This document shows positions 31,452 through 58,877 of a DNA stretch of 64,000 bases, one piece after another. Location of the stretch: the NCBI RefSeq assembly GCF_005849285.1, contig NZ_CP040517.1, positions 3,044,501 to 3,108,500 on the forward strand, written 5' to 3'. The translations under genes were made by a program, and so were the position numbers. Each line of letters starts with the position of its first letter. Position 1 is the stretch's first letter. The DNA comes from Luteithermobacter gelatinilyticus (lineage in GTDB: Bacteria > Pseudomonadota > Alphaproteobacteria > Sphingomonadales > Emcibacteraceae). The notes under the pieces were generated by a model, which was not told where the DNA came from, did not search any database, and saw only the letters and a program-made list of their open reading frames with translations.

Positions 31452-31452
31452 C

Positions 31453-32631: not shown

Positions 32632-32642
32632 GGAGAAAAGCA

Positions 32643-35600: not shown

Positions 35601-35786
35601 TCATCCGGTGTGGGGGCCGAAACACAACGTCCTCTCGCATCGGTCGTTGTCGGAGGACTGATCTCTTCGACATTTCTCACTCTCGTCCTGCTGCCGGTCG
35701 TCTATGAGTGGATGGAAACCCGAGACGCAAGACACAAACTCGAACGAGGACGTAGGTTCATAATTTCTAAGCCAAATGCGCATTGA
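32643..35786 (+). CDS. czcA: Heavy-metal efflux RND transporter, CzcA family
   Basis: This 1047-residue protein has 12 predicted membrane helices and two large periplasmic loops, with an N-terminus (LVEISLQYKFLVIIAFLVIGF) typical of HME-RND pumps. In TM4 the motif reads AIGIGMMVDGAVVMVEN at residues 400-416. Asp408 and Glu415 of Ralstonia CzcA are kept, but the essential Asp402 of the Zn/Co/Cd group is Gly here. The motif is thus of the xIG-x3-DGA-x3-VEN kind, whose substrates are less well defined, so I do not assign the metal. The last ten residues (RFIISKPNAH) are translated from the end of an IS5 copy, which has replaced the native C-terminus. Confidence 0.92.
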   Translation: MLNKLVEISLQYKFLVIIAFLVIGFFGWRAVNTVPIDAFPDVTPVQVNIYTESPGLAAEDVEQLLTFPIESGMAGLPGVEQIRSVSLFGLSYVAVYFEDDMDIYFARRLVMERLAEVEDRIPEGYGTPEMGPNTSGLGQVFWYTLERADEKLVGDITDMDLRTLQDWSIRLILRTAAGVDDVTSWGGQERQFQVQIDPLKLIKYGLGYRDVMEAIETNNRQVGGQYIDQGPEQFLVRGLGLVKNEQDIGSIVLKVEDGTPVYLRNVAEIKQAPALRFGAVTRDGEEVVLGMALSRIGENAKNVVDAVKGKLSIAEQALPEGVKLRPIYDRTDLVEKAVSTAERALIEGSILVAIVLFLFLGELRSALVVIAALPLAMLIAFIFMEQAGLSANLMSLAGLAIGIGMMVDGAVVMVENSFRIMAERKAEEGKVRRTAAVLTAAREVANPIAFAILIIIVVFLPLFSLQGLEGKLFKPMAFNISFAMAGSLVLTLTIIPVLAALILKPKEERDTLLVRWIKRGYLPLLSWSLANKRKVVLTAMALLIGSLSLFPFLGKEFMPQLQEGSIMWRVTSIPSTSLDQSIKISKDIEMALSEYSEVETTVAMIGRAEKGETADVNYMEIYTALKPHDKWSSDRSFEELAEAMRETLEEVVPTSVVAFTQPIQMRVEELISGVRATLAAKLYGEDLGELDRLSRKIKNVIAGVPGVADLSLEANLGKPQVRIEVDRSQLARYGLNADDVLTIVRTGIGNEPVSTLIEGVKRFDITARLRDSSKQSVDSIKAIPLRTADGAVIPLSRVADVSVAEGYSFVRREQLQRYSVIQMDVRGRDVDGFVRDANKAIEQNVKLPPGYWIEWGGSFENQQRALTRLAIIVPLTIFFIFVLLYTAFNSIRYATLIIANVPFATIGGLIALAVTGQYISVPSAIGFIAVFGVAMLNGIVLVSFINELREKGLGVAEAVRRGTELRLRPVLMTASVAILGLVPMLLSSGVGAETQRPLASVVVGGLISSTFLTLVLLPVVYEWMETRDARHKLERGRRFIISKPNAH

Positions 35787-37062: not shown

Positions 37063-37291
37063 CTCCTCTATACCTCTCTTTTTCCCCTTAATTTCATGAT
37101 CCTTCCCCGATGTCCTGAAGAAGCAATTGTGACACACCATCGGTTTATGACACAAACTCAAACGAACCATGCCCATACTCTGTACCCCCTAAAGTTGGTA
37201 CATCTGTTGCGCAGCCCCCCGATGGAAAAATAAAGGCCGGGATGGTCCCGGCCTTATTGACAGTTTTACTCAGGAAAGTATCCCGCTTAAG
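37063..37291. terminator. Intergenic region with terminator of the minus-strand M14 gene (hairpin 37233-37255)
   Basis: AAGGCCGGGA-TGG-TCCCGGCCTT is followed on the minus strand by TTTATTTTT. It lies 36 bp beyond the stop of the peptidase gene. The rest of the region shows no gene. Confidence 0.8.
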
Positions 37292-39895
37292 TTAAGAAGG
37301 ATCTTTTGGCTTTTCAAAAATCTTGGAGAAAAACAGGCTGTTGAGGAACAGCTTTTTGGTGCCATAGAAATAGGCCCGGAAATTGGGATTATCGCTGAAC
37401 AGCACCACACTGCCCTGTCCGAGCCGTTCGGCCACCGCCATGGCCCGACCCGCCAGCTTGCGCTGATTTTCGGCGGAGGCATACCCGCTAAGCAGGGCGT
37501 TTTCCGGGATCTCCACCACTGTGGCGTATGGATTTTTCGGTCGCTCAAAGGCAATCAGCGTGTTGCGATGACTGGCAATATCCCGGCGGACATACCCATA
37601 ACCAATGGGATGGGTGATATCCAGATCCCCAGCCATGATCGCCCCGCCGATAATTTCCAACGCCTCCAAGTCTTCCTTGTCGCCGTAATCCTGCCGCGCC
37701 GGGGGAGTGTCCTTTTCTGCTTCGTCTTTGGAAACAAGGGATGTTTCAAGCTCCAGAAGGTTTTCCCCCGCCCAGCGCGCGCCCTGACGCAACGCCACCA
37801 GCGTCCCGCCAGAACGGACCCAGTTATCCACTTTTTTCGTGATCGTCTCGTCTAAGGATTTATAGGAACCGCCCACCATGATGATATGGGTGTATCCGGA
37901 CAGATCCAGCTTGCCCAGTTTCCGGCGATCATACAACACCACCGGCATTTTCATCTGGTGATCCAGCAGGTGCCAGACCTCGCCCGCATCATAGGCGCTC
38001 ACCCCTTCTCCCACCAGCAGCAAAACCTTGGGTTTTGTGAGCGCCGCATGATACGGACTGCCCAGGTCCATGCCCGCCATCGGGGTATGGGAACTGTCCA
38101 GCGCGTAAACCGGGATCCCGTCCTCACGGGCGATGGTGCGGACCAGCTCATGAATCCTCTCGACATCCTGCCCGGCCTGCCAGCCCACCGGCACCACAAT
38201 ACTGCCCCGGCCCATCTCTTTCACACCATTCCCGGTGGTGATTTTGAAGGGTTTGGTGGCCACGCGCGCATTAACCCCCGCCTTAAGCAGCCGGTACAGC
38301 GCCCGCGGGGCGTAATACGGGCTCCAGGAAAAGACATAACCACTGCGGGCCTTTTCCGGCGCCGGCATTACAGGAAATTCCGCCCGGGCCTCCTGGCCCA
38401 GCGTATAAGACCGTCCCTTGACCGGCGTATAGTCCAGACCGAAGGCCAGCGGCAGAGTCCAGCCGGACACGTCATAAAAAGTATTGTTCTCAAAGGTAGT
38501 GATCTTTTCGAAAATACCCTTGATCAGGCGATACTGATCCTGACCGGTTTCCACCACATAGGAATTGACGGCCCGGAAAAGCTTGCCGTTCACTTTCAGG
38601 TCCCGGCCCAACCGATAAGTCCGAATTTGATGCCGTTCCAGAAGATCCAAAAAATGGTAGGCCCGCGCCGAATCCTCGGGCACGGCAAAAACATATGCCT
38701 TGATATCGTCGCGGGCCGCCAGCTTGCGGGTCTCGCGCACAAACTCCCGCTGATAATTCAGCAAGTCCTGCCGCATATCCGCGGCGGATTTCAGAAGCGC
38801 CAGGCTGGTGCGGAACTGGGTGCGGATATTGTCCCGGAAAGACAGAATGCCATAAGGCGTTTCCAGCAGCCCATTGGTGCGCGCCTGTTCAAACAGGATT
38901 CCGATGCTGCCGTTGACATGAGGATAGGTGGAGCCTTTGCCAATATAGAAGTTATCATAGGATTCTTCGTTGAAATACAGGCGGGATTCGTTGTCCATAA
39001 AGGCGCGCGGCCCATCCACCACCTTGTTCAGCAACTGCATGGACTTTTCCGGAATCAACGGAAAGATGCGGTCCGGGGCACCGGGATGAAAATAATAGGT
39101 CTTGTGAGAGCCCATTTCATGATAATCGGCCAGTATGCTGGGTTTCCATTCGTGGAATTTGGCGACCCAGCCCTTGGGCTCCGGATGCTGCAACAACAAC
39201 CATTGCCGGTTGAGATCGAACCAGTAATGGTTGGTGCGCCCACCCGGCCAGAAGGTATTGTGGATGCGGGCGTTGGGATCGGTCACCGGCACATCCGCCC
39301 CGTGCATCCAGTTCCAGGCGGACTGGCGGCTGCTGCCGTCCGGATTGAAGGAGGCGGTGAGCAAAATCACGCTGTTTTTCAGAAGCCGGTCGATTTCCGC
39401 CCCTTGAGCCGCCGCCAGATGATAAGCTACAGGCATGGCGGCGTCGGTGGAGCTGACCTCGGCCCCGTGAACCCCATAATTAAGCCAACTGATGACCGGC
39501 GTATCTGGCCCTACCTGCTGCTCCGACTCCGGATCCCTCAGCGCCAAATGGGCCTGTCTGATTTCCTCAAGGCGGGCATGATTTTCCGGCGCCGTGATGG
39601 TGAGCGTGACAATGGGACGCTTTTCATGGCTATAAGCGATAATTTCAGAAGATACCCGATCGGAAACTTCCGCCAGTTTCAGCAAATACTGCACCAGCAG
39701 ATCATTACGGGTAATACGATATCCCAGTTCATGGCCAATAAACGCCTTCGGCGTGGGAATGGCCGGATCATAGGTCACGCCTTGCGGATAAAAACTTTTG
39801 TCCCGGGCGGTTTGTGCCTGCGCCCCCACACCGGCGCTGACAACCAGAACAAGGCTGGCGATCACACTAAACAGTATTCGACTGATTTTTCCCAT
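37292..39895 (-). CDS. Secreted M14-family zinc carboxypeptidase
   Basis: This 867-residue protein has a signal peptide ending near AQAQ (residue 28). The M14 catalytic domain spans about residues 50-390. Zn ligands His143 and Glu146 are in GVHGAEVS, the substrate-binding NPDGSSR and DLNRQW motifs follow, then the third Zn His in LADYHEMGS and the general base Glu in GILFEQART. A long C-terminal part of unknown role includes a class-I-amidotransferase-like segment (VLLLVGEGVSAYDAGEVWHLL). It lies 33 bp downstream of the M14/aminoacylase fusion gene and is probably in the same operon. It would trim peptides in the periplasm or outside the cell. Confidence 0.88.
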   Translation of the reverse strand: MGKISRILFSVIASLVLVVSAGVGAQAQTARDKSFYPQGVTYDPAIPTPKAFIGHELGYRITRNDLLVQYLLKLAEVSDRVSSEIIAYSHEKRPIVTLTITAPENHARLEEIRQAHLALRDPESEQQVGPDTPVISWLNYGVHGAEVSSTDAAMPVAYHLAAAQGAEIDRLLKNSVILLTASFNPDGSSRQSAWNWMHGADVPVTDPNARIHNTFWPGGRTNHYWFDLNRQWLLLQHPEPKGWVAKFHEWKPSILADYHEMGSHKTYYFHPGAPDRIFPLIPEKSMQLLNKVVDGPRAFMDNESRLYFNEESYDNFYIGKGSTYPHVNGSIGILFEQARTNGLLETPYGILSFRDNIRTQFRTSLALLKSAADMRQDLLNYQREFVRETRKLAARDDIKAYVFAVPEDSARAYHFLDLLERHQIRTYRLGRDLKVNGKLFRAVNSYVVETGQDQYRLIKGIFEKITTFENNTFYDVSGWTLPLAFGLDYTPVKGRSYTLGQEARAEFPVMPAPEKARSGYVFSWSPYYAPRALYRLLKAGVNARVATKPFKITTGNGVKEMGRGSIVVPVGWQAGQDVERIHELVRTIAREDGIPVYALDSSHTPMAGMDLGSPYHAALTKPKVLLLVGEGVSAYDAGEVWHLLDHQMKMPVVLYDRRKLGKLDLSGYTHIIMVGGSYKSLDETITKKVDNWVRSGGTLVALRQGARWAGENLLELETSLVSKDEAEKDTPPARQDYGDKEDLEALEIIGGAIMAGDLDITHPIGYGYVRRDIASHRNTLIAFERPKNPYATVVEIPENALLSGYASAENQRKLAGRAMAVAERLGQGSVVLFSDNPNFRAYFYGTKKLFLNSLFFSKIFEKPKDPS

Positions 39896-39928: not shown

Positions 39929-42664
39929 TTATTGTTGTTTTTTAAGGGCTTTGCCCGCTAGCATGCCTGTATATCGGCCCTTGTCAATAACAACCTGTCC
40001 ATTGACCAGCAGCCATTCGACTCCCTCACTCAGTTTTTCCGGCGCCAGATAATCGGCTTTGGGTCGAAACCGGTCCGGATCGAAAATCACGATATCCGCC
40101 GCATATCCAGGCGCCAGATATCCCCGGTCCCTAAGCCCGAAAGTCTCCGCTGCAAATCCGCTGCTGCGATAAATAAAATCGGGCAGGGAAAGCAGATGCT
40201 CATCGGCCACATAGGTGGCGTATTTTTTCGGGAAGCTGGCATATTTTCGCGGATGCCCCGTGCTGCCATCGGACGAGGTCATCACCCAGGGCTGTACCAT
40301 GAACCGGCGGATATCTTCCGCCGTCATGTTGAAACTGGCCACCCGGGCATTGCCGGAAAGGACAATATCCAGCGCCACACTCACCGGATCTTTCCCCTGT
40401 TGCGCAGCAATTTCCGCCAGGGTGCGGCCGCGCAGATCGGGCCGGCGCGGATCGGTAATCAACAGGGAATGTGCCCCGCCACGTCGGCGCAGATTATCGG
40501 TCATCTCGGCCCGGATGCGCTCTGCAAGAGCCGGATCCCTGAGCCGTTCATGGTATTTTTCGGTCGATCCGGCCATCACCCAGCGCGGAATGAGCGCCCC
40601 GGCGATGCTGGTGCCGGAAGCGGTCCAGGGATACTGGTCGGCGGTCACCCGAAGGCCATCCGCCCGCGCTTGTTCCACCATCGTAATGATTTCGCGGCTT
40701 TTGCCCCAGACATCCGCGCCCAACGCCTTGAGGTGGGCGATATGGACCGGTAGACCGGCGGCCCGGCCCACCTCAATCACTTCCCGAATGGCCGCCACAA
40801 GACCAATGTTGTAACTGCTTTCATCCCGGATATGGCTGTCATAAACACCGCCATATTGCCCTGCCACGCGCGCCAGGGCGACAACCTCCTCGGTGGTGGC
40901 GTAATTGCCGGGCACGTAATAAAGCCCGGTGGACAGGCCCAGCGCCCCCTCGCCCATGGCCCGGGCCACAAGTTTTTCCATACGGTCCAGTTCCGCAGGC
41001 GTCGCGGTCCGGTTTTCAGTGCCCATAACGGCACGCCGCACACTGCCATGTCCCACATACAGCGCCACATTGGTGCCAATGCCCTGGCTTTCATAAAAGG
41101 CGAGACGTTCTCCCACATTGACCGGCCCCCCGCCATCATTGCCACAAAAGACGGTCGTCACCCCCTGGGTCAGATAGTTGAGATTGGCCTTGCCGTTTTC
41201 CTGATCCAGATCGCCGCAGGCATGGGTGTGAGGGTCGATAAAACCGGGGGCGACAACCTTCTCCCCCGCCTCTATAATCCTGCGGGGCGCCAGCCCCTCG
41301 GGCAGGGTCGGACCACGATAGATGACTTGACCCTCATGCACCACAATCACGCCCTTTTCCGGCGCGCCGCCCTCTCCGGCATAAATGCGGCCGCCCCGGA
41401 TCAGCAGATCAACCGGCCGAGCGGTGGCTGGTTTCCGGGGGCCGGTCTGACCGGCTTTGCGGGCGGCCAACATGAGTTTCATCATTTCCTCGGCCGCGAC
41501 CACCGCCTGCCGACGCAATCCGGCCCGATCCGCCGTATCGGCAACTTCATAAGTGATGGCGGGCACTCCGAACCGACTATATACATAATTTTTCAGGGTC
41601 GGCTTGCCGGTTTGTTTACGCGGTTCCAAGGCTAAGGGCTGATCCGGCAGGCGTTTGCGAATGGCGTGATGCCATTGCCGGGCGAAATCTTCGGGGCGGG
41701 TCTTGTCTTCGGCCGCCTGAACATATAACAGGCTGTCCCAGGTGGAATGAAAGTCCAGCACCAGCGCCAATTGCCCGCCTTCCTCCGCCGCGAGCCGGTC
41801 CAGTTCCGCCTTGACAAGTTGCGTTTCCGGTTGAGTAAACGGTCCCCAATCCCGATTCAGATCCTTGCCCCGGGCATTGCTGCGCCAATGGCCGGACGCC
41901 ACCCCGTCCGGATTGAGATTGGGCACGGCCACAATGCGGAAATTCTGGCGGAACTCCCGGGCCAGGGTGGAGTCTCCAAATACTGTTTCCGTAAACGCCA
42001 GCATGGCCTGCGCCCCGGTCACTTCCGGCGGATGCTGCCGGCCGATCAACAAAATGGTCTGCGCATCATCTTTATCCGGACGGTTTTCCAGTTTGAAGAT
42101 TTCCCGTCCTTCACTGGATCGGCCCAGCCGGCTAAGCTCAAGGTCCGGCTTTTCCACCAGTTTCTCCTGCCACAGCATATAGTGCCGGTTGGTGAGAAGT
42201 TCCTGCGCGGCAACCCAGAGCGGTGCCTGATCCAGATCCAGAGTCATGGTGACCTGCCGCCCGTCATGTCGTACCGAAACATCCTTGTCCGGCAACCGTC
42301 GCCAGTTCTGGCCATCCCGGCTGACCTTGGGCCGATAACGATGTTTGCCCGCCGCGTAGTCCAGGGTCACTGTGATGGTTTGCGATGTTGCAGAATCAAT
42401 ACGGAAAGCATACCAGGGGCTGGGGTTGACGGGCTTCACTTCGGGCCGGATCAGGAGCCGGTAGCCCATCGCCGTCTTTTCACAGGCCGACAGCCGGGCC
42501 CCAGGAAAATCCGCGTGAAAGGCGATATCGCCGAAGGCGCACCCCTCAAGCGGCGCAGCCGGCGCCGACAATGCCGCTGCTGCATAGAGGATAATCCCCC
42601 CCAGACCCCGCATAACAACAGCCCGGACGAATGAGGGCTTCGTGACAATCCCTGATCTTTTCAT
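39929..42664 (-). CDS. Fusion of M14 carboxypeptidase and D-aminoacylase-type amidohydrolase
   Basis: This protein has 911 residues from the ATG at 42664 (AGGGGGA ahead). The in-frame extension to 42814 lacks such a site. Residues about 5-40 are a signal/anchor segment. About 160-410 are an M14 domain: Zn ligands in RQHPPE, then NLNPDG, LNRDWG, VLDFHST and the Glu in ITYEV. From about 420 to the end is an N-acyl-D-amino-acid deacylase/D-aminoacylase domain: GFIDPHTH metal motif, CGNDGGGP, DSHIRDES, HIAHLKALG and SSDGSTGHP with the metal Asp. Both active sites look complete. One chain could cleave a terminal residue and deacylate the D-amino-acid product. It is located between a TonB receptor and another M14 peptidase. 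Confidence 0.88.
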   Translation of the reverse strand: MKRSGIVTKPSFVRAVVMRGLGGIILYAAAALSAPAAPLEGCAFGDIAFHADFPGARLSACEKTAMGYRLLIRPEVKPVNPSPWYAFRIDSATSQTITVTLDYAAGKHRYRPKVSRDGQNWRRLPDKDVSVRHDGRQVTMTLDLDQAPLWVAAQELLTNRHYMLWQEKLVEKPDLELSRLGRSSEGREIFKLENRPDKDDAQTILLIGRQHPPEVTGAQAMLAFTETVFGDSTLAREFRQNFRIVAVPNLNPDGVASGHWRSNARGKDLNRDWGPFTQPETQLVKAELDRLAAEEGGQLALVLDFHSTWDSLLYVQAAEDKTRPEDFARQWHHAIRKRLPDQPLALEPRKQTGKPTLKNYVYSRFGVPAITYEVADTADRAGLRRQAVVAAEEMMKLMLAARKAGQTGPRKPATARPVDLLIRGGRIYAGEGGAPEKGVIVVHEGQVIYRGPTLPEGLAPRRIIEAGEKVVAPGFIDPHTHACGDLDQENGKANLNYLTQGVTTVFCGNDGGGPVNVGERLAFYESQGIGTNVALYVGHGSVRRAVMGTENRTATPAELDRMEKLVARAMGEGALGLSTGLYYVPGNYATTEEVVALARVAGQYGGVYDSHIRDESSYNIGLVAAIREVIEVGRAAGLPVHIAHLKALGADVWGKSREIITMVEQARADGLRVTADQYPWTASGTSIAGALIPRWVMAGSTEKYHERLRDPALAERIRAEMTDNLRRRGGAHSLLITDPRRPDLRGRTLAEIAAQQGKDPVSVALDIVLSGNARVASFNMTAEDIRRFMVQPWVMTSSDGSTGHPRKYASFPKKYATYVADEHLLSLPDFIYRSSGFAAETFGLRDRGYLAPGYAADIVIFDPDRFRPKADYLAPEKLSEGVEWLLVNGQVVIDKGRYTGMLAGKALKKQQ

Positions 42665-42824
42665 CTGTTCCCCCTGTTTGATCTGTATCCTGTCTTTTGT
42701 GTGTCTTGTCTTATGTGCAATGGCGTGGGCGCCGCCCCCAAAAGGTGAAGAAAAAGGTGGCGATGGGAATCGCCACCCCAAAGTATACAAGATGCCTCTG
42801 ATGACAAAGATCATCTTGTCAGAC

Positions 42825-45800
42825 TTAGAAGTTCGCTCTCACTGACGCATAAAAGAACCGGCCTTCGGCGCTATGCAGGCTGGCCTCATAGCCATAGGTT
42901 TCATCCGTGACCGGCGGCTGTTTGTCAAAGATGTTCCTCACGCCGAGACGGATGCGGGTGCCTTCCAGCGTCCCTTCGTCAAAGGTGTACTGACCATAGA
43001 GGCTGAACGTCATCCAGTCATCCACCCGGAAGAATTCCTTGGTTTCATCCTGCTGCACGGAGGTATCGAAAAATGCCCCGACATATTTGCCGTACAGTCC
43101 CGCGCCCCAGTTGTCATACCGCCAGGTGATGGTCCCGGTGGCCTGCCATTTCGGCCGCCCATCCATTTCGATCAGATCGCCGGAATCCGCAACCACAATA
43201 CCCAGCGCAGAGAGACGTTTCTCCGGCTCGGACGGTTCCTGGAACGCGGTGATCAGATAAGCTGCATTCACCTTGAAGCGGAAGTCGCCAAGCGGGGTAT
43301 CATGCAGATTGTAATAGGCCCCCAGATCCAGCCCCTCCGTCGTGCGGGCATTCAGATTCTGGAACTGGCCGATCACTTCAATAATATCGCCCACCGGTGC
43401 CAGTCCGGACCCGGCATAAAAGTCGATATCGTCCTGGGTCACCTCGTCGCGGATGACAAAGTCGCTGGCCCCACCTTCCAGACGGTCGGCAAAATCCAGC
43501 GCCGCAATGGCATCGGCATCCAAAATGCCCACAAGGCCGTCCTGCTCAACCCGCCAATAATCTATGGTCAGGGTCAGGTCCTCGGCAAATTCCGGTGTGA
43601 ACACCGCCCCGATGGTATAGTTCACATCATTTTCGGGCTCCAGATCTTCATTGCCAAGACGCACATTGGTCACGCTATCATTGCCGCTACAGGTCAGAAT
43701 ATCGTCCCGATCGCCCTTATTGACTTCGGCCTGGCAGCGATAAAAATCGTCTACCGTGGTCTGACGGGTAATTCTCTGGGTATGCAGCTGTTCCAGATTG
43801 GGGGCACGGAACCCTTCGGAATAGGCGGCGCGGACCTGCATCCAGGTGGTCGGGAACCAGGACAGGGCGAATTTCGGTTTAAACACGCTGCCTACATCGG
43901 AATAATGTTCAAACCGACCGGCAAGCTGCAGATCCAGACTGCGCACCAGCGGAATGTCCATGTCTTCATTCACCAGCGGCACGGCCAGTTCGGCAAAGGC
44001 GGAAAACACCTCCCTTGCCCCTTCAGCGTCCGGCGTATCGCTGGAGCCGACCACATCCGACCTGTTGACCAGTTCGCCGGTCACCTGATCCACAAAGGTG
44101 ATGGTCCCGTCAAGACGATCATCCCGATCGTCCAGGAAAGTCTCGCGACGTCCTTCAACCCCGAGCGCGATGCCCACACTGCCGGCCCACAACTCGGTCA
44201 GATCCGGATTCGAGAGCTTGAAGTCCGCCAGTGCCAAGGTGGTTTTGCTGAAACGCGTTACGTCAATCAGAAAACTGTTGATGGTGTCCGGATCGTTGGG
44301 GGTCGCGTCTCCCACATTGACATTGTTCGGATCACCCCCATTAAACGGGTTATAGGCTGAAGGATCGGTGCGGTTGATGGCCTGTTGCAGCAGAGAGCTG
44401 CTGACCCGGTTATGGGTGGTGTCCAGGGTGGTGGCTTCCGAATAAAGCACCGCACTGTCCCAGTCCCAGGTGCCGAACGTGCCGCGCAGCCCGGCCAGGG
44501 TACGGAAGGTTTCGTTATCCACGTCAATTTCTCGCACCCCGGCATCCACCACGCGGTAGCGGGTCATTTCGATATCCAGTCCTTCGGCCGGAATGTCAAA
44601 GCCGTCTACCCGGTTCGGATTTCCAACCGCGCCGAGCGGATTCCAGTAGGCATCCTTGGAAATGGTGATCGGTGCCGAACTCAGCATGGCGCTTTCCGCC
44701 CGGTTTTTGGTGGATTCGGCCCGGTAATAGCTCAACTCGCTGTAAAATTCCAGACCGCTGTCGAATTCGTGATTAATGAACACGAACGCATTGCCCCGTT
44801 CCGTGTCGGGAATCATCTGACGGGAGGTGTTGGTGTCAAACCGCTGATCCCGGCTGATGGTGCCGCTGTCGATACACAGGCCGCCTGGCAACACGCAGTC
44901 CTGATTGCTGTCTTCGGGATCCACGGGTTCAATATGGAAAACTCCGCCTGACGTGGTCAGCCCGGGAACGCCCTGCGATGCCTCGAAACGTCCCCAGGGC
45001 GTTGTCGTGGACCGGTTGTCAAACTGGGTATCGCCGGCAAATTCCGTATCCTCAAAGAAGGGCCGCCGGTCCGCCGACGCGGAAAAAGGCAATTCACTGG
45101 CATCAACTCCCGTGCCTTTGTAATAGTTCAACGCCAGGGAAATATTGGTCTTGTCCTCATTAAGGTTCCAGCCTCCCAGGAAATCGGCCTTGAATTTGGA
45201 TCGGCTAGTGTTTTCCGCTTCGCCATATTCCACATTCACGCGATAGCCTTCAAAGTTGTCTTGCATAACCGTATTGACCACGCCGGCCACCGCGTCGGTG
45301 CCGTAAATGGCAGCGGCGCCGTCATGCAGAACCTCGACCCGCTGGATTCCAGACACCGGAATGGTGTTCACATTCACGGTGGTCACAGGCACGGAATCTT
45401 CCGTCTGGGTGCCGGGATGCTGCACCAGACGGCGGCCATTGAGCAACACCAGCGTATTTCCGGTTCCAATACCACGCAAATTGATGGAAGCCACATCCCC
45501 GCGTGCCGCGTTCACCCCGCCGCTGACCGTGTCTGTCCCGTTAAAATTGATATTGCCGTTGGATGGCAGGGAGCTGAACAGTTCCGACCCAGAGGTGGCG
45601 GCAATGGCGTCAATATCTTCCTGACGGATCAGGGAAACCGGCAAAGAGTCCGTCACCTTGGCGCCCTTGATCTGGGACCCAACAACGATCACTTCTTCCA
45701 GTTCCGTCGCTTCATCGACCATTGCCACCTGCTGGAGCTGTTCTTGCTCCTGTTCTTGTTCCAAGGCCTGGGCCTGGGCGGCAGCAAATCCCATACCGCA

Positions 45801-45869
45801 GACCGACGCCAGCAGCACAGAGGTGAGAGTCCTGTATCCGGATTTGTTGTGTTCTGGTTTATTGCTCAT
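42825..45869 (-). CDS. TonB-dependent outer-membrane receptor
   Basis: This 1014-residue protein has a signal peptide (SVLLASVCGMGFAAAQAQA, about residues 16-35) and a short Gln/Glu-rich linker. The TonB-box/plug region follows (EVIVVGSQIKG, then INLRGIGTGNTLVLLNGRRL and RVEVLHDGAAAIYGTDAVAG). A large 22-strand barrel ends in aromatic Phe (FFYASVRANF). It is of the long type with an N-terminal extension that often imports peptides or oligosaccharides. It lies 160 bp upstream of the M14/aminoacylase gene. A perfect 8-bp palindrome 134 bp before its start is a likely LysR site. Substrate is inferred from neighbours as D-amino-acid-containing peptide. Confidence 0.92.
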   Translation of the reverse strand: MSNKPEHNKSGYRTLTSVLLASVCGMGFAAAQAQALEQEQEQEQLQQVAMVDEATELEEVIVVGSQIKGAKVTDSLPVSLIRQEDIDAIAATSGSELFSSLPSNGNINFNGTDTVSGGVNAARGDVASINLRGIGTGNTLVLLNGRRLVQHPGTQTEDSVPVTTVNVNTIPVSGIQRVEVLHDGAAAIYGTDAVAGVVNTVMQDNFEGYRVNVEYGEAENTSRSKFKADFLGGWNLNEDKTNISLALNYYKGTGVDASELPFSASADRRPFFEDTEFAGDTQFDNRSTTTPWGRFEASQGVPGLTTSGGVFHIEPVDPEDSNQDCVLPGGLCIDSGTISRDQRFDTNTSRQMIPDTERGNAFVFINHEFDSGLEFYSELSYYRAESTKNRAESAMLSSAPITISKDAYWNPLGAVGNPNRVDGFDIPAEGLDIEMTRYRVVDAGVREIDVDNETFRTLAGLRGTFGTWDWDSAVLYSEATTLDTTHNRVSSSLLQQAINRTDPSAYNPFNGGDPNNVNVGDATPNDPDTINSFLIDVTRFSKTTLALADFKLSNPDLTELWAGSVGIALGVEGRRETFLDDRDDRLDGTITFVDQVTGELVNRSDVVGSSDTPDAEGAREVFSAFAELAVPLVNEDMDIPLVRSLDLQLAGRFEHYSDVGSVFKPKFALSWFPTTWMQVRAAYSEGFRAPNLEQLHTQRITRQTTVDDFYRCQAEVNKGDRDDILTCSGNDSVTNVRLGNEDLEPENDVNYTIGAVFTPEFAEDLTLTIDYWRVEQDGLVGILDADAIAALDFADRLEGGASDFVIRDEVTQDDIDFYAGSGLAPVGDIIEVIGQFQNLNARTTEGLDLGAYYNLHDTPLGDFRFKVNAAYLITAFQEPSEPEKRLSALGIVVADSGDLIEMDGRPKWQATGTITWRYDNWGAGLYGKYVGAFFDTSVQQDETKEFFRVDDWMTFSLYGQYTFDEGTLEGTRIRLGVRNIFDKQPPVTDETYGYEASLHSAEGRFFYASVRANF

Positions 45870-46039: not shown

Positions 46040-47044
46040 TCAGACAGCCCCTCCGGCCCCGCTTCCCCACAAACCGGTCGGCAGGGGGCCGATGATGCCA
46101 TCTTGGATACTCAAGCCCGGGGTGCGGTCCCGGGCCATCCACAACGGCCCGTCCAGATCTACAAAATCCGCATCATGCGCCAGCATCAAGGCCGGCGCCA
46201 TGGCCAGCGAGGTGCCAACCATACAGCCGACCATAATCCCGAACCCCATTTTCCGGGCCTGTTTCTTCAGCGCCAGCGCCTCGGTAAGCCCGCCGCTTTT
46301 GTCCAGTTTGATATTGATGACCTGATATTTGTCCTTGAGCCCCGCCAGATCCTGTCGCGTGTGACAGGATTCATCAGCACACACTGGCACCTGTCCCTGA
46401 AACTCCGCCAGACCGTCATCTTGTTCCGCTGGCAAAGGCTGCTCCAGGAGATCCACCCCCAGCGCCGCCAGCGGGGCGTCCACCTCGCGCAGGACATCCA
46501 TGTCCCAGCTTTCATTGGGATCAAGGATCAGCCGTGCCTTTGGCGCAGCCTTACGGATCGCGCTCACTCTGGCAATGATGTCCTCCCGATCCAGCTTCAC
46601 TTTAAGCAGCGGACAATGGCGCAGCCGGGCGGCTTTTTCCGCCATCCTTTCCGCACTATCGATGCCCAGAGTGACGGCCGTAACCACCTTCTGGTTCTCA
46701 GGCACCTCCAGCAGGCGTGCCACCGTCGTGCCTTTCCAGCGGGCCTGTTGGTCCCACATGGCGCAATCCAGCGCATTGCGTGCCGCCCCCGCCGGCAGAC
46801 TGTCCAGAAGATCCTCGCGGCTGAGTCCCCCCGCCAGGTCATCCCGCAGCCTTTCCACCGCCTCGAGAACCGTCTCCACGGTCTCGTCATAACGGGCATA
46901 GGGCACAGCCTCGCCGCGTCCGCGCACGCCCAGACAGTCGAGCATTGCCACCACCACCTGTGCCTCGGTCTTCACCCCGCGGGAAATCCTGAATGGCGCC
47001 ACCAGCGGCCAGGTTTCGGACATGACAAACAGTTTCTGCTCCAT
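46040..47044 (-). CDS. dgcA: N-acetyl-D-glutamate racemase / dipeptide epimerase
   Basis: This protein has 334 residues from the ATG at 47044, 1 bp after the dgcN stop. It is an enolase-superfamily member with the muconate-lactonizing-type barrel: the Lys-x-Lys of LLKVKLDRED (about 150), metal ligands Asp in LILDPNESW, Glu in LLEQPLP and Asp in VCADESCH, and the opposite catalytic Lys in INIKLDKSGG. The family includes L-Ala-D/L-Glu epimerases. Next to dgcN it matches DgcA of the marine D-glutamate catabolic pathway, which racemises N-acetyl-D-Glu to N-acetyl-L-Glu. Epimerisation of murein-derived Ala-D-Glu is the alternative. Confidence 0.85.
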   Translation of the reverse strand: MEQKLFVMSETWPLVAPFRISRGVKTEAQVVVAMLDCLGVRGRGEAVPYARYDETVETVLEAVERLRDDLAGGLSREDLLDSLPAGAARNALDCAMWDQQARWKGTTVARLLEVPENQKVVTAVTLGIDSAERMAEKAARLRHCPLLKVKLDREDIIARVSAIRKAAPKARLILDPNESWDMDVLREVDAPLAALGVDLLEQPLPAEQDDGLAEFQGQVPVCADESCHTRQDLAGLKDKYQVINIKLDKSGGLTEALALKKQARKMGFGIMVGCMVGTSLAMAPALMLAHDADFVDLDGPLWMARDRTPGLSIQDGIIGPLPTGLWGSGAGGAV

Positions 47045-47045
47045 A

Positions 47046-48056
47046 TTACCGGTCACCTCCGTCAAGGCCGTCCACAATTGCCGCCACCCCAAAACGTAGC
47101 GGGTCCACGCACGGCACCCCAAATTCCCGGGCATAACGGGCGCAGATGTCCCGGGCTTCCGCTTCCGACACGGCGGAACTGTTGAGCGCAAGGCCCCCCA
47201 GCCGCACCCGGGGATTGGTCCGGGCCGCCAGTTTCAGGTTCAGCTCTATCACCTCTCCCAGCGGCGGCACATCATAATCGGGCAGCCCCCGCATATGCGC
47301 ACGCCCCAGTTCATGACACAATACGATTACATCCGCCTGCGCTCCGTGCAGCAGGCCCAGACTGACCCCGGCATAAGACGGATGAAACAGCGACCCCTGT
47401 CCTTCAATCAGGTCCCAGTGGTCCTCCTCTTGGGCCGGGGAAAGATGCTCCACGGCTCCGGAAATAAAATCGGCCACCACGGCATCCACGGACAGGCCGC
47501 TGCCCGCAATCAGGATACCAGTCTGGCCGGTCGCCCGGAAGTCCACCTTCATACCGCGGGCCCGCATTTCCTTTTCCAACGCCAGCGTCGTGTACATCTT
47601 GCCGACGGAACAGTCCGTGCCCACTGTCAAAAGCCGCCGGCCGGAACGGCGGGCCCCGGTGCCCACGCCCAGCGGAATTTGCGGATGACGCACGTCAAAA
47701 ATATGGCGCCCCAGCGCAGCCGCCCGGTCACGAATTTCCGGAATATCCGCGAGCTTCTGGTGCAGGCCGCTGGCCACATCCAGGCCAGCCTCAAGCGCCT
47801 CAAGCACCACGGCGATCCAGCGCTCGGACAACACGCCCCCGGCATTGGCCAGGCCGAGAATAAAGGTCCTGGCCCCCCGGGCTGCCGCCTCTTTGACGTC
47901 AAGCTGCGGCAGCCCTAGGCTTATTTCGCATCCCTCCAACCGCACCTCGCCCACACATTTTTCGGGCCGCCATTGGGCAATCCCGCGCGAGGTTTTCACA
48001 GAAAGAGGATCTTTTGCATCACCCAGAAACAACAGATAAGGTGCAGCAATTTCCAT
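47046..48056 (-). CDS. dgcN: DUF1611-family N-acetyl-D-glutamate synthase
   Basis: This 336-residue protein has two DUF1611 halves. A Walker-A-like segment VGTDCSVGKMYT (about residue 145) starts the C-terminal P-loop half. GQTGILIAGSG and HWDLIEGQGSLFHPSYAGV follow, characteristic of the family. In Pseudoalteromonas DgcN acetylates D-glutamate so that DgcA can racemise it. The 1-bp spacing to dgcA supports the same role here. The gene begins 41 bp after the CapA-like gene and is likely in one transcript with it. Confidence 0.83.
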   Translation of the reverse strand: MEIAAPYLLFLGDAKDPLSVKTSRGIAQWRPEKCVGEVRLEGCEISLGLPQLDVKEAAARGARTFILGLANAGGVLSERWIAVVLEALEAGLDVASGLHQKLADIPEIRDRAAALGRHIFDVRHPQIPLGVGTGARRSGRRLLTVGTDCSVGKMYTTLALEKEMRARGMKVDFRATGQTGILIAGSGLSVDAVVADFISGAVEHLSPAQEEDHWDLIEGQGSLFHPSYAGVSLGLLHGAQADVIVLCHELGRAHMRGLPDYDVPPLGEVIELNLKLAARTNPRVRLGGLALNSSAVSEAEARDICARYAREFGVPCVDPLRFGVAAIVDGLDGGDR

Positions 48057-48096: not shown

Positions 48097-50331
48097 TTAT
48101 TTGCCCGCCGCCAGCGGCAGAAGGCGACCCAATATCGTCAGTTTTGTTATGTTATTGTCCGGTTTTTCCGTCCGCAGATAATCAGCCCGCGTAATGGCAA
48201 CAGGGGCCCGTTCAGAAGAGTCGGCTTCCGGGGTCATCTCTCCATCGACCCCGAACCATTCCACCAGCGCCAGATCATCCAGATACACCATCCCCCCACG
48301 ATCCAGCTCAACCACCGGCATGAACCCGCGTATGCGACTGTCCGGCAGCCTGAAATCCAGGGCAAAAGGCTGCCAGCCAGACCGGGCCAGGGTCACCTGG
48401 CCCACCACATCACCGGCGGGCTGCCGTAAGGCCCTGGCGCGGGAGCTGCCGTTCTCCCACAATTTAAGTTTGACGCTCAGACGCTGCCCGGGCTGTCCGT
48501 ATACGTAACCGACAAGGCTGAGACGGGCCCCCTCGGCAAAATTCATCCGCCGCAGAAAGGACCTCGGTTCCAGCTGCGCCCCCTTACCGGAAAGCTGATA
48601 CGCCCAGACGCCGCGATGGACTTGTTCCTGGGTGAACCGGCCCGCGCCGGTGTCCCGCCAGCTGCGATCCTCAAGACCCCACAGGCCCTGTTGCTCAAAA
48701 TCCCCGAAATACATATGGTTGTGTCCCAGCAGAAAGGGCAGGCGTTGCCCAGCTTCCCCGTCAATCCGGACCGGAAAAATCAGCGGGACGGAAAAACCGG
48801 TGCGCTCCGGACTCTGCGCGGCGGCCATGGCGATAATGCCGGTGGACGGCACCCCAACCTCCAGCCGCGTCACGGGAATACTGTCCGGCTGCTGGGGCAG
48901 GATCACGCCATGCCCTCCGGAGCGCCCCATTATCAGCCCGTTTTCCCCAGACAGGCTGGCCAGCCGGCGCAATACGGTCCGACGCACCTGTCCCACCGCC
49001 GGCGTCGGGCGATAGTTTTTGAGATAAAGCGGCACCACCTCCGCCCGGTGAAAGTGCTCCCCATCCATCCACACATAAAGCAGCAGGGACGGAAAAGTTT
49101 CATACCGGTATTGATCAAACACAAAATTTCCCAGGGAATAGGCCAGAAGCTTGCCTTTATACAGATCGAAACCCTGACTGACATGGGGATGATGGCCGAT
49201 CACCAGGTCCGCCCCCTGATCCACAGCCAGGCGCATGCGCTCTAGGGTGGTTTCACTGGGCCGATAGCTATATTCCCGGGACCCGTGATACTGGACCACC
49301 ACCGCTTCACCGTTTTTCGCTACAGGACTTACTGCCCGGATAATATTTTCCGCCCGGCCATGCGCCGCGCCACCTTTGGCTTTCCCTTCAGCTGCCTGAT
49401 GCGGCGTGAAATTGCCTTTCCAGCCCACAAACCCGAGATGATGGGTCATGACCCCGGCGATCATCTCCCGGTGCGCCCGAAGCGCTTCCGTCTCATGACG
49501 CCCGCCGCCGGAAAACCCCACAGAGGACTTTTTTAGCGCTGCCAGCGTCGAGGCCATGCCCTCGTCCAGATAATCATAAACATGATTGTTGCCCAGGCTC
49601 ACATGATCGACACCAGCCCCTTCCAACGCCGCCAGAAAGGCGGTCGGGGAATAAAAGGTATAGGCTTTGCCGGCCTTCTTCCTGGGCGGAGTGTCCATCA
49701 ATGCGGTCTCCAGATTGACCGAGGCAAAATCCGCCAGTTCCAGATACTCCCGCACAGACGCCAGAACAGCCCGCGCTGCTTCCACCTCATGGCCCGGCCG
49801 AAGTATCTGTTCCTCCCCGGCGAAAGGGGTACGATACCGACGCCCCATCATGGCGTCACCGCCAAAGACCATCAACATCCGACCAGCTTGGCGCCGGACC
49901 AGTACGACAGGGGGAAATTCCAGCCCCTCCTTGCCGGCAGCCAGTTCGGCCGGGGAAAAACTCTGCACCATATCATAATATCCCGGTGCCGAATATCTAA
50001 GCCGCATCACTGCCCGGGCAGTCTCGGAAAACTGGAACCGTCCGCCATGGCCGTCAACCACACGACCGTTTTCCAGCGTCACCTGAAAATTCCGAAGCGG
50101 CGCACCGTTTTCGTCCACCACCTGCCCAGCAAAGACTATTGCTGTCGTTTCAGCAGATGCCGGCAGAGACGCGGCCGCCAGAGACGAAACCCAAGAACCT
50201 GAGATCAGTCCCCCCCACAGCAACACGCCGGCAACAAACCGTCTCACCTGATATCCGCGCGCTCTATCCTTACACCGGAAAGACGGGGAAGCTGTTTGGG
50301 GACCGGTTCCGAAATCTGTGGTGTTCATCAT
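48097..50331 (-). CDS. Secreted CapA-family metallophosphatase-like protein
   Basis: This protein has 744 residues from the double ATG at 50331 (AGGGA just ahead). An in-frame start at 50376 is less likely. Signal/anchor residues are about 35-55. A carboxypeptidase-regulatory-like beta domain follows (FAGQVVDENGAPLRNFQVTL). The CapA/PgsA calcineurin-like fold comes next, with GGDAMMGRR, ADFASVNLETAL, SLGNNHVYDY, GHHPHVSQG and YSLGNFVFDQ, and the C-terminal 250 residues look like carbohydrate-binding jelly-roll material. CapA homologues are linked to poly-gamma-glutamate, and together with dgcN-dgcA this hints at a D-Glu polymer. Phosphatase activity is unproven for the family. Confidence 0.85.
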   Translation of the reverse strand: MMNTTDFGTGPQTASPSFRCKDRARGYQVRRFVAGVLLWGGLISGSWVSSLAAASLPASAETTAIVFAGQVVDENGAPLRNFQVTLENGRVVDGHGGRFQFSETARAVMRLRYSAPGYYDMVQSFSPAELAAGKEGLEFPPVVLVRRQAGRMLMVFGGDAMMGRRYRTPFAGEEQILRPGHEVEAARAVLASVREYLELADFASVNLETALMDTPPRKKAGKAYTFYSPTAFLAALEGAGVDHVSLGNNHVYDYLDEGMASTLAALKKSSVGFSGGGRHETEALRAHREMIAGVMTHHLGFVGWKGNFTPHQAAEGKAKGGAAHGRAENIIRAVSPVAKNGEAVVVQYHGSREYSYRPSETTLERMRLAVDQGADLVIGHHPHVSQGFDLYKGKLLAYSLGNFVFDQYRYETFPSLLLYVWMDGEHFHRAEVVPLYLKNYRPTPAVGQVRRTVLRRLASLSGENGLIMGRSGGHGVILPQQPDSIPVTRLEVGVPSTGIIAMAAAQSPERTGFSVPLIFPVRIDGEAGQRLPFLLGHNHMYFGDFEQQGLWGLEDRSWRDTGAGRFTQEQVHRGVWAYQLSGKGAQLEPRSFLRRMNFAEGARLSLVGYVYGQPGQRLSVKLKLWENGSSRARALRQPAGDVVGQVTLARSGWQPFALDFRLPDSRIRGFMPVVELDRGGMVYLDDLALVEWFGVDGEMTPEADSSERAPVAITRADYLRTEKPDNNITKLTILGRLLPLAAGK

Positions 50332-50460
50332 GTTTCCCTGAAACCTGTTGCCTGAGTCTGTCAATGAGTCTGTCAAAGCAGCACTTGTTGCGGCACAAAA
50401 TTCATGCCCCCAGCTTAACGGCCGTGTCCCGTCCGGAAAAATTCATTCCTTTGGAGCGCT

Positions 50461-50477
50461 CATAACCGCAGGCTATA
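50461..50477. promoter_or_regulatory. Candidate LysR operator upstream of the CapA-dgcN-dgcA operon
   Basis: CATAACCGCAGGCTATA is an imperfect copy of the palindrome at 46003, with T-N11-A spacing kept. It lies 130 bp upstream of the CapA-like start and overlaps the end of the lysR gene. Confidence 0.55.
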
Positions 50478-51387
50478 GCGCCTGGGCATCCGGAGCCACC
50501 AACAGGGTGGATTGATAGGTTGCGCGAAAATAGTCCAGAAACCGCTCACACACCTTGGACAGCGGCCGGTTTTCCGCATACAGCCCCTTGACGGTATAGC
50601 GGATCGCCGGATCGAACCCCGTATGATGCACTGTGCCGGGACCCGCCGCCTGGGCCGTCAGGTGATCCACGATCGCCACACCCACGCCATACCCCACCAG
50701 ATTCTTGGCGATATAATAGGTCTGGGCGGTCACAATGGACTCGAAAGCCAGGCCCCGGGACATGATTTCGTGAAACAGAATGTCTGACAGTGGGCCGCTG
50801 TCCTTGATGCTGATCACTTCTTTGCCTTTCAGGTCTTCCAGTCGCAGGCGGGCGGGCGGATCAGGAAAATCCTTGTCGTTATAGACACAAACAAACTCCC
50901 CTTCGCCAATATCATATTCGCGAATGCCGGCCACGGCGGGTGGGCTGAACGCCAGGCCGATGTCGTTTTCCTGTTCATAAAGGGAGCCGATCAGGCCTTC
51001 AAAATGCTGGGTGCGGATGTCAAAGGTCACATGGGGATAACGTTTCCGGAAGCCGGCAATCGCCCGCGGCAGGATATCCAGCCCCACGGCTGGCATGGCC
51101 GCCAATCGGATATGGCCCGATTTGCCGTCGCGCAGATTGCGGGCCTTGTTCTGCAGGGAGAGGACCTTGTCATAAACGGTCTTGACCTCACCAAATAACG
51201 CATGGGCCTCTTCCGTGGGGATCATCTTGCCCCGGATACGCTGAAACAACGGATAGCCCAGCTGATCCTCCGCATGGTGCAACACCTTGCTGATAGACGG
51301 CTGGGATACATTCAGCTTGCGGGCGGCCCCGCTGACCGTACCGCAGCTGTAAACGGCATAAAAAACCTCGATATGGCGCAAACGCAT
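50473..51387 (-). CDS. LysR-family transcriptional regulator
   Basis: This 304-residue protein has an N-terminal winged HTH (MRLRHIEVFYAVYSCGTVSGAARKL region, recognition helix around VSQPSISKVLHHAED) and a C-terminal periplasmic-binding-protein-like effector domain from about residue 90 (KSGHIRLAAMPAVGLDILPR). It sits between gabT upstream and the CapA-like gene downstream, all on the same strand. Palindromes of LysR type are found ahead of two operons in this locus, so it is the natural candidate regulator. Effector unknown, perhaps D-glutamate or a derivative. Confidence 0.9.
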   Translation of the reverse strand: MRLRHIEVFYAVYSCGTVSGAARKLNVSQPSISKVLHHAEDQLGYPLFQRIRGKMIPTEEAHALFGEVKTVYDKVLSLQNKARNLRDGKSGHIRLAAMPAVGLDILPRAIAGFRKRYPHVTFDIRTQHFEGLIGSLYEQENDIGLAFSPPAVAGIREYDIGEGEFVCVYNDKDFPDPPARLRLEDLKGKEVISIKDSGPLSDILFHEIMSRGLAFESIVTAQTYYIAKNLVGYGVGVAIVDHLTAQAAGPGTVHHTGFDPAIRYTVKGLYAENRPLSKVCERFLDYFRATYQSTLLVAPDAQAL

Positions 51388-58868: not shown

Positions 58869-58877
58869 GGATATGTC

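Follow-up and report, generated by a model that had tools for sequence, protein, structure and literature searches.

DgcN and DgcA form a known intracellular route for the consumption of D-glutamate (D-Glu), and strain CF6-2 of Pseudoalteromonas is reportedly the one used in the 2023 DgcN-DgcA paper of Yu et al. Among the literature matches listed, no paper dealt with the way in which such bacteria release D-Glu from peptidoglycan or polyglutamate. D-amino acids from peptidoglycan have been counted as part of the refractory organic matter of the sea (PMC10845958). In microcystin-degrading sphingomonads, the mlrE-mlrF cluster for a D-residue peptide has been described as placing a peptidase gene beside a so-called D-aminoacylase gene; in these accounts the genes are separate and MlrE is called a dipeptidase, and the likeness to the gene analyzed here is one of description (PMC4520899, PMC6256522). 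The individual domains have better known counterparts. BcCCP (4B6Z), PaCCP (4A37) and human CCP5 combine an N-terminal beta domain with an M14 catalytic domain and its zinc ligands, and the bacterial CCPs and CCP5 are cytosolic. D-aminoacylase from Alcaligenes faecalis (1M7J) and the Bordetella N-acyl-D-glutamate deacylase (3GIP) share a fold, two beta-site His, an HxH motif, a catalytic Asp and a substrate-holding Tyr/Lys/Tyr/Arg set, and carry Cys as a zinc ligand.

The stretch of DNA analyzed here (the window) comprises 64,000 nucleotides from Luteithermobacter gelatinilyticus. An earlier note, made from its letters, had proposed that an M14 carboxypeptidase and a D-aminoacylase domain are joined there in one secreted chain with both active sites complete, which could free a terminal residue and then hydrolyze an N-acyl-D-amino acid, an activity pair not known to its author as a characterized enzyme.

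Results

Two hydrolase domains in one chain

On the minus strand, an open frame of 911 codons runs uninterrupted from 42664 to 39929, where the plus strand is interrupted by stops, and a purine-rich ribosome site, CAGGGGGAACAG, precedes its start. Both folds lie in the one chain according to Pfam (Pepdidase_M14_N, Peptidase_M14 and Amidohydro_3), and the fusion of an M14D carboxypeptidase with a D-aminoacylase-like amidohydrolase is real. Its parts are as follows:

39929..42664, minus strand: fusion gene, M14D carboxypeptidase plus D-aminoacylase-like amidohydrolase, 911 aa (open frame, Pfam, ribosome site)
42554..42664, minus strand: probable signal peptide, residues ~1-37, boundary by eye (hydrophobic stretch)
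42209..42469, minus strand: CCP-type N-terminal domain PF18027, residues 66-152 (Pfam, fold match to CCPs)
41462..42166, minus strand: M14 catalytic domain, residues 167-401 (Pfam covers 167-328, the remainder by alignment)
41420..41461, minus strand: linker of about 14 residues (402-415), without a second leader peptide by comparison with relatives
39932..41419, minus strand: D-aminoacylase-like domain, residues 416-911 (Pfam 463-893, alignment, predicted fold)

That two genes had been joined by a sequencing or assembly error near residue 415, which the earlier note named as its refuter, is very improbable. The highest 12-residue Kyte-Doolittle value between residues 390 and 425 is 0.8, and the first 45 residues of the separate amidohydrolase genes of 39 relatives reach maxima of 1.51 to 2.9; the leader of the second gene is thus absent at the junction, and an indel error would not delete it. 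Codon-position GC runs unbroken over the junction, and the source genome is a single contig, 99.3% complete. A frameshift or assembly error was rejected on these grounds, even though the samples searched yielded no further genome carrying the fusion and the 60 relatives drawn included none of the source genus.

Conservation was read from alignments whose rows were hand-chosen for spread, each containing the window sequence: A1 (with 22 of 40 amidohydrolase frames), A2 (20 of 27 carboxypeptidase frames), A4 (44 of 80 carboxypeptidase-locus frames) and A5 (24 of 35 amidohydrolase frames of those loci). A joint alignment of the halves on the full chain misplaced M14 rows (12–19% identity) and was discarded, and each domain was modelled on its own. 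The N-terminal hydrophobic stretch resembles a signal peptide by simple hydropathy, and two positions behind it are conserved as Cys, C42 in 21/21 rows of A2 and 32/45 of A4, and C61 in 21/21 and 41/45, a pattern that would be in keeping with export and disulfide bonding. The single chain with two catalytic domains stands as proposed earlier, and its export, probably to the periplasm, is predicted from hydropathy.

The carboxypeptidase half

By its domains, fold and catalytic residues, the N-terminal half is assigned to peptidase family M14, subfamily M14D (CCP), with a predicted carboxypeptidase (for example deglutamylase) activity. Peptidase_M14 matches at 167-328 with 57.8 bits (cut-off 21.6) and Pepdidase_M14_N (PF18027) at 66-152 with 26.1 bits (cut-off 23.2). 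The zinc ligands H211, E214 and H306, the terminal-carboxylate residues R261, N270 and R271 and the catalytic E373 are all kept in 21/21 rows of A2 and 45/45 of A4. Over model residues 3-371 it matches bacterial CCPs and the deglutamylase CCP5 with Z scores of 34.1–38.2 and rmsd of 2.5–2.8 (342–359 residues aligned, 17–24% identity), and the remaining fold matches shown (ranks 12–50) reach Z ≤27.2 over 237–262 residues. The fusion shares the two-domain layout and zinc ligands of these enzymes but differs in being probably exported and joined to an amidohydrolase.

At the S1' pocket, Lys358 is present in 21/21 rows of A2 and in 41/45 of A4, two further rows having Arg. BcCCP has a Lys at the base of the same pocket, one residue further on in the alignment, which has been interpreted as matching an acidic substrate; toward a glutamate derivative, that enzyme is described as showing no more than low activity (PMC3940198). 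The conserved Lys suggests that the carboxypeptidase half targets a residue with an acidic side chain.

The amidohydrolase half

Amidohydro_3 matches at 463-893 with 77.5 bits (cut-off 29.7). The model of this half (pLDDT 91.8) has the D-aminoacylase fold: the nine best Foldseek rows comprise D-aminoacylases, an N-acyl-D-Glu deacylase and OngB, with TM scores by query of 0.79–0.83. Key residues are H479, H481, D510, Y583, H611, H644, K646, Y678, D799 and R806, among which the HxH pair (H479, H481) and the catalytic D799 are conserved in 23/23 rows of A1 and 25/25 of A5. All the shared elements listed above for 1M7J and 3GIP are found again, at 30% identity, except that the clade examined has Asp510 where those enzymes have the zinc ligand Cys. 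Asp510 aligns with metal ligand Cys96 of D-aminoacylase, so that the metal site is filled but non-canonical and departs from the Cys/His/His zinc site of amidohydrolase subtype V. The Asp occurs in 109/109 matches of at least 45% identity, some genes being counted in several loci.

The statement that both active sites are complete consequently holds in that all catalytic positions are filled and conserved in the aligned rows, with the qualification of the Asp at a Cys ligand position; the metal-ligand positions are occupied in both domains. Among the eight substrate residues, traced here except for Leu116, Ser291 corresponds to Gly684 and Leu370 falls in a gap. Arg295 of the Bordetella enzyme, which holds the gamma-carboxylate and confers D-Glu specificity, has an uncertain counterpart in the fusion: the nearest by eye is R694, beside an insertion, which is Arg in 18/23 rows of A1 and 16/25 of A5. 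To our knowledge, activity has been measured in neither the carboxypeptidase nor the amidohydrolase clade.

Gene neighborhood

The fusion gene lies among the following features:

37292..39895, minus strand: second M14-family protein, 867 aa, starting 33 bases past the fusion gene (Pfam)
42754..42779, minus strand: terminator-like hairpin, placed between the receptor and fusion genes (consensus scan; weak evidence alone, with 20 such sites in the region vs 16.3 expected)
42825..45869, minus strand: TonB-dependent receptor, relatives of which also lie near the split pair
46040..47044, minus strand: DgcA, N-acetyl-D-Glu racemase (NF042940, 457.5 bits, cut-off 400), start set at the ATG after dgcN, the listed frame beginning at 47191
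47046..48056, minus strand: DgcN, N-acetyltransferase (NF041892, 527.8 bits, cut-off 480)
48097..50376, minus strand: PGA_cap domain protein, a recurrent neighbor (PF09587, 179.1 bits, cut-off 27)
50473..51387, minus strand: LysR-type regulator, DgcR-like by position only (Pfam and position)

DgcN, DgcA and the TonB receptor point to D-glutamate, whose conversion to L-Glu by DgcN/DgcA is predicted for the source organism. In Pseudoalteromonas sp. CF6-2, the order is TonB receptor, amidohydrolase (L3Q70_RS17260, 59% identical), M14, NhaC, dgcR, dgcN and dgcA. This locus has in common with the source the receptor, the amidohydrolase, a large M14 protein, the LysR regulator, dgcN and dgcA. Its M14 gene, which follows the amidohydrolase, is a 53% relative of the gene at 37292..39895 and not of the fused M14 domain; the 31 kb examined hold neither a relative of the fused M14D domain nor a fusion, and there is an NhaC-type transporter gene.

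A rare fusion of a common gene pair

A survey of how widespread the fusion is, as suggested in the earlier note, found it in the source genome alone among the samples searched. No other fusion was present among the matches listed for 60 relatives and for an order sample of 396 genomes, in a class sample of 385 genomes (E ≤1e-150), in a phylum sample of 398 genomes (E ≤1e-80), or in the best 80 of at least 562 confirmed carboxypeptidase loci; the three samples overlap, each includes the source genome, and two candidates per genome were scored. Viral contigs held no stretch matching the search patterns, and among 153 plasmid records from tblastn none had 80% of the query covered in one place. 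Matches in two genomes of the order sample, G097 and G088, span both halves but hold 2 and 1 stop codons, respectively, and are thus adjacent genes in one frame. No report of the fusion or of the cassette discussed below was recognized from titles and abstract openings among the matches listed.

As two adjacent genes, on the other hand, the pair is common, so that the pairing itself is not unique. In 29 of the same 80 loci, mostly from alpha- and gammaproteobacteria, the amidohydrolase gene begins −17 to +12 bases from the carboxypeptidase end on the same strand (approximate spacers, starts being taken as the first ATG after a stop). It is usually directly downstream, often overlapping, and has its own leader, which is missing in the fusion. 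Exceptions have it on the opposite strand (L110, L136, L160), elsewhere (L152) or behind an intervening gene or gap (L102, L111). At the threshold used, 45/80 carboxypeptidase loci are without an amidohydrolase, 11 of these having less than 1.5 kb downstream, and 13/37 amidohydrolase loci of a second set are without a carboxypeptidase; neither half, then, strictly needs the other nearby. Among the matches listed, those of genome G002 are closest to both halves, and there the halves lie at two distant loci. Forty regions outside the 80 loci were chosen partly because both halves matched, and were therefore not used for rates.

D-amino-acid genes accompany the amidohydrolase

The best 80 of at least 562 carboxypeptidase loci were divided into 33 with and 47 without the amidohydrolase. 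A D-amino-acid dehydrogenase or DgcN/A was present in 25/33 vs 5/47 (nominal p 3e-9) and an SDF-family or GltS symporter in 14/33 vs 1/47 (nominal p 6e-6), p-values that overstate the association, since the dehydrogenase and symporter queries were taken post hoc from amidohydrolase-bearing loci and the two groups are unlike in taxonomic make-up and in the length of their contigs. PGA_cap-domain genes, as in the source cluster, occurred in 12/33 vs 2/47. The SDF symporters score far under the GltP and DctA cut-offs, glutamate and dicarboxylate carriers being indistinguishable, and a clear GltS was seen in one locus only. Most often the partner is a D-amino-acid dehydrogenase of the general kind (23/33), with DgcN/A in only 2/33, so that a D-amino acid other than D-Glu could be released. 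Among 20 control loci of amidohydrolase paralogues, hand-picked from the matches, DgcN/A occurred in 3/20, showing that some paralogues also adjoin Dgc, and DadA and SDF/GltS symporters each in 0/20.

Discussion

Our main explanation, to which we give a probability of about 0.5, is that the protein would be an exported, probably periplasmic bifunctional hydrolase freeing D-Glu from gamma-linked glutamyl peptides, either muropeptides or poly-gamma-glutamate. The neighboring TonB receptor would bring peptides across the outer membrane; the M14D half would strip an acidic terminal residue from the D-Glu gamma-carboxyl; next, the amide on the D-Glu amino group would be cleaved by the D-aminoacylase-like half, releasing for instance L-Ala or gamma-glutamyl; and free D-Glu would enter the cell for conversion to L-Glu by DgcN and DgcA. 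The released D-amino acid is most likely D-Glu. Counting against this explanation are the low activity described for BcCCP, the Asp in place of the zinc Cys, the changed substrate residues, the uncertain D-Glu Arg, the low DgcN/A count, the poor specificity of the symporter matches, the carboxypeptidase loci that lack an amidohydrolase and the split halves in G002. The substrates put forward earlier, muropeptides and poly-gamma-glutamate, fit the neighborhood, which narrows the product to a D-amino acid; two successive activities on one substrate are likewise favored by the neighborhood, the activities themselves being predictions from sequence and model.

The two candidate polymers give two versions of this explanation, each of which we regard as quite possible at somewhat below even odds. 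On a mixed D/L poly-gamma-glutamate, the M14D half would take terminal L-Glu and the amidohydrolase terminal D-Glu, so that one chain could shorten the polymer whichever residue comes next. The S1' pocket looks suited to acidic residues, the M14D fold is common to a deglutamylase, D-Glu catabolism genes lie alongside, PGA_cap genes recur in the source cluster and in amidohydrolase-bearing loci, and a related M14 in Porticoccus (L132) has a gamma-glutamyltransferase gene downstream. PGA_cap is, however, a family name and not a demonstrated function, and the ten window proteins scanned gave no match to a poly-gamma-glutamate hydrolase family. In a muropeptide scavenger, the M14 half would split the bond between gamma-D-Glu and diaminopimelate or lysine, and the amidohydrolase that between L-Ala and D-Glu. 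The known gamma-D-Glu-DAP carboxypeptidases MpaA and Csd4 belong to other M14 branches, the S1' Lys is no less suited to Glu than to diaminopimelate, and no further muropeptide-recycling family was matched among the same ten proteins. Yet L-Ala-D-Glu is itself an N-acyl-D-Glu, the score of DgcA lies above the cut-off of the L-Ala-D/L-Glu epimerase model as well (348.5 bits vs 343), and D-Glu has been described as fundamental to peptidoglycan (PMC10845958).

It is unlikely, in our judgment, that the halves act on unrelated substrates and were joined by an accident of adjacency in a general peptide-scavenging operon. The restriction of the fusion to one genome of the samples searched and the many unpaired loci would agree with such an accident, but the pair is adjacent, often overlapping, in 29/80 loci, and D-amino-acid genes track the amidohydrolase. 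If instead the main explanation is true, the fused protein frees D-glutamate from cell-wall or polyglutamate material as food. The fusion is a natural hint that two hydrolases share one substrate, and it names candidate genes testable in the cultured strain CF6-2. Should the amidohydrolase clade prove active, a family described by Cys/His/His would gain an Asp/His/His site, and through the M14 half an exported bacterial relative of the deglutamylases would acquire a substrate. More tentatively, and with clearly less confidence, the pair might be the missing outer part of D-glutamate catabolism in the sea, as a recurrent cassette of a TonB receptor, an M14D peptidase, an Asp/His/His amidohydrolase, a D-amino-acid dehydrogenase or DgcN/A, and a symporter of the glutamate/dicarboxylate type. 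This cassette would extract D-Glu from polymers and, in the source, would be condensed into a single chain that carries two exo-hydrolases of complementary stereochemistry and an amidohydrolase metal site of a new type.

Carboxypeptidase loci were also checked for other partners, 15 of 16 giving output, mostly as N-termini compared by eye. While no partner common to the remaining loci was seen among these 15, the gammaproteobacterial loci L113, L119 and L130 share their next two genes.

One reading frame encodes both hydrolase domains

The fusion gene is a single frame of 911 codons, and its product carries Peptidase_M14, a CCP-type N-terminal domain and Amidohydro_3 (Pfam) in one chain, in agreement with the earlier note, which had described an M14 carboxypeptidase joined to a D-aminoacylase domain. 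As its top NCBIfam match, an amidohydrolase subfamily model, scored 186 bits against a cut-off of 340, far under it, no curated NCBIfam family names the fusion protein. The ATG at 42814 was set aside as an alternative start; a purine-rich ribosome site precedes the ATG at 42664.

Features of the fusion gene and its surroundings
42664 to 39929, minus: fusion gene
37292-39895, minus: second M14 protein, 867 aa, adjoining the fusion gene
48097-50376, minus: protein with a PGA_cap domain and, at its N-terminus, a carboxypeptidase-regulatory-like domain
42754-42779: terminator-like hairpin of 11 pairs, separating the receptor gene from the fusion gene
37233-37255: terminator-like hairpin, 10 pairs, 3' of the second M14 gene

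The possibility that two genes had been joined by an error near residue 415 was not borne out. The linker between the domains spans about 14 residues and lacks the second gene's leader, and codon-position GC is continuous across the junction. Since a base error can remove a stop but not a leader, we take the fusion to be the probable product of a deletion. The separate amidohydrolases of relatives start with a hydrophobic leader, with a lipoprotein-like Cys in many.

Separate genes in relatives

The two halves are separate genes in relatives. Among the 80 named carboxypeptidase loci (the best 80 of 562 confirmed, retrieved by a 21-sequence profile), the amidohydrolase gene lies directly 3' of the carboxypeptidase gene on the same strand in 29, with a spacing of -17 to +12 bases and an overlap of exactly four bases in 11 of these pairs. 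It is present in another arrangement in six further loci and absent at the same threshold in 45, of which 11 have less than 1.5 kb of sequence downstream. In genome G002, the closest relative of both halves among the matches listed (63% and 53%), they lie at distant loci. A second fusion was not found in overlapping samples of 396, 385 and 398 genomes, with two candidates scored per genome, nor in the best 80 of the 562 loci, where no open frame containing the M14 half exceeds 566 codons. The fusion is real and rare, and it is functionally informative because the joined genes are frequent neighbours.

The carboxypeptidase half

The predicted model of residues 38-410 is confident (mean pLDDT 95.3). 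Human CCP5 and bacterial CCPs are its best matches, with Z scores of 34.1-38.2 and an rmsd of 2.5-2.8 across 342-359 residues; the remaining M14 entries among the matches listed ranked behind them, with Z scores of at most 27.2 across 237-262 residues. In the aligned rows of both carboxypeptidase alignments (A2, 21 rows; A4, 45 rows), the zinc ligands, the residues for the terminal carboxylate and the catalytic Glu do not vary. C42 and C61 are both Cys in 21/21 rows of A2, and Cys in 32/45 and 41/45, respectively, of A4.

By profile alignment, Lys358 falls on BcCCP Ser329, the position of carboxypeptidase A Ile255, one residue before BcCCP Lys330; it is Lys in all 21 rows of A2 and Lys in 41 and Arg in two of the 45 in A4. 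From this conserved lysine we infer that the terminal residue taken would be acidic. The authors of the BcCCP report (PMC3940198) interpret Lys330 as fitting an acidic residue. As the activity they describe on a glutamate derivative is only low, an acidic preference stays putative for the family.

The amidohydrolase half has a variant metal site

The model of this half (pLDDT 91.8) best matched D-aminoacylases, N-acyl-D-glutamate deacylase and OngB. Seven of the eight substrate residues of characterised D-aminoacylase were traced by alignment: five have invariant counterparts (Y583, K646, Y678, D799 and R806), Ser291 corresponds to Gly684 and Leu370 to a gap. The His pair H611 and H644 and the HxH residues H479 and H481 are invariant in both amidohydrolase alignments (23/23 in A1, 25/25 in A5). 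At the zinc-ligand Cys position the fusion has Asp510, as do 109 of 109 matches of at least 45% identity, a count in which genes recur across loci. The note's view that both active sites appear complete held insofar as the catalytic positions are filled in both halves, the one at this Cys by a non-canonical residue. The Asp510 clade probably acts like a D-aminoacylase; as it lacks this Cys, a defining feature of subtype V amidohydrolases, we do not file it there.

Distant paralogues have Asp, Cys, Trp, Gly or others at this position. Trp, Gly or Val replaces Cys/Asp in L022 (the same gene as L178), L023, L025, L032, L182, L192 and other loci, within motifs such as GEGW/GEGV, possibly reflecting another metal arrangement.

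A cluster with D-amino-acid genes

The minus-strand neighbours of the fusion gene encode a TonB receptor, the second M14 protein, DgcA, DgcN, the PGA_cap protein and a LysR regulator; DgcA and DgcN exceed curated cut-offs. The second M14 gene begins 33 bases beyond the fusion gene, and its product's C-terminal part has only ThuA/DUF4350 matches, under cut-off. Relatives of this M14 protein stand beside the amidohydrolase in L055, L056, L058 and Pseudoalteromonas sp. CF6-2, where receptor, amidohydrolase, second M14, dgcR, dgcN and dgcA are grouped in one locus. The two hairpins may mark attenuation inside the cluster. An amidohydrolase relative (37%) in Haladaptatus halobius keeps the usual Cys and lies near DgcN-/DgcA-like genes; a stop interrupts its gene as recorded.

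The commonest partner is D-amino-acid dehydrogenase, found in 23 of the 33 named amidohydrolase-bearing loci, often between receptor and carboxypeptidase; others are an SDF-family symporter (13), a YjgF-type protein (5), DgcN/A (2) and GltS (1). The scores of the SDF proteins do not separate glutamate from dicarboxylate carriers, as they fall far under the cut-off of each. A dehydrogenase or Dgc protein occurs in 25/33 loci with the amidohydrolase versus 5/47 without (19/24 versus 3/33 in loci of at least 14 kb), and an SDF or GltS symporter in 14/33 versus 1/47 (12/24 versus 0/33), with Fisher values that are nominal. As the partner queries were drawn from the amidohydrolase-bearing group and the groups differ in taxonomy, this association is strong but not clean evidence. 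The PGA_cap protein, weakly similar to the lasso-peptide epimerase MslH (54 bits against a cut-off of 700), has counterparts in 12/33 loci with the amidohydrolase versus 2/47 without.

Of 20 D-aminoacylase-like paralogues from outside the clade, three (L179, L180, L191) also lie near DgcN/DgcA relatives. In Porticoccus sp. W117 (L132:11606-13342), a gamma-glutamyltransferase gene lies about 0.5 kb downstream, after receptor and M14D gene. Three gammaproteobacterial M14D loci that lack the amidohydrolase (L113:11129-12979, L119:11189-13024 and L130:11047-12888) have the next two genes in common.

A proposed route to D-glutamate

Domain and neighbourhood facts agree on a single product, a D-amino acid, most likely D-Glu because DgcN/DgcA adjoin the fusion gene. 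In peptidoglycan, L-Ala acylates the nitrogen of D-Glu and a gamma linkage joins D-Glu to the residue that follows; in poly-gamma-glutamate the N-acyl group is gamma-glutamyl. One activity would remove the residue on the gamma side of D-Glu and the other the acyl group on its nitrogen, together freeing D-Glu from either polymer, and the fusion would be such a pair. We give a probability of roughly 0.5 to an exported, probably periplasmic bifunctional hydrolase that frees D-Glu from gamma-linked glutamyl peptides, a value held down by the low specificity of the symporters.

The parent polymer could quite possibly be poly-gamma-glutamate, towards which the acidic S1' pocket and the PGA_cap neighbours lean; peptidoglycan fragments, favoured by natural abundance, are likewise a credible source. 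That the halves act on unrelated substrates and were joined by accident seems unlikely, with the loci lacking one of the halves on its side and the 29 adjacent pairs on the other. Both component families and the downstream pathway are already known. A broader and more tentative form of the D-Glu-releasing reading is that the pair represents the outer half of marine D-glutamate catabolism, a recurrent cassette that here would be one chain with a new amidohydrolase metal site; the symporters' low specificity weighs on this form too. We would pursue next the variant metal site and the D-amino-acid cassette that recurs.

Other genes in the window

By eye, the N-termini of two genes at 57573-59864 resemble ergothioneine-type EgtB and EgtD, and genes at 30183-35786 resemble a heavy-metal efflux system.
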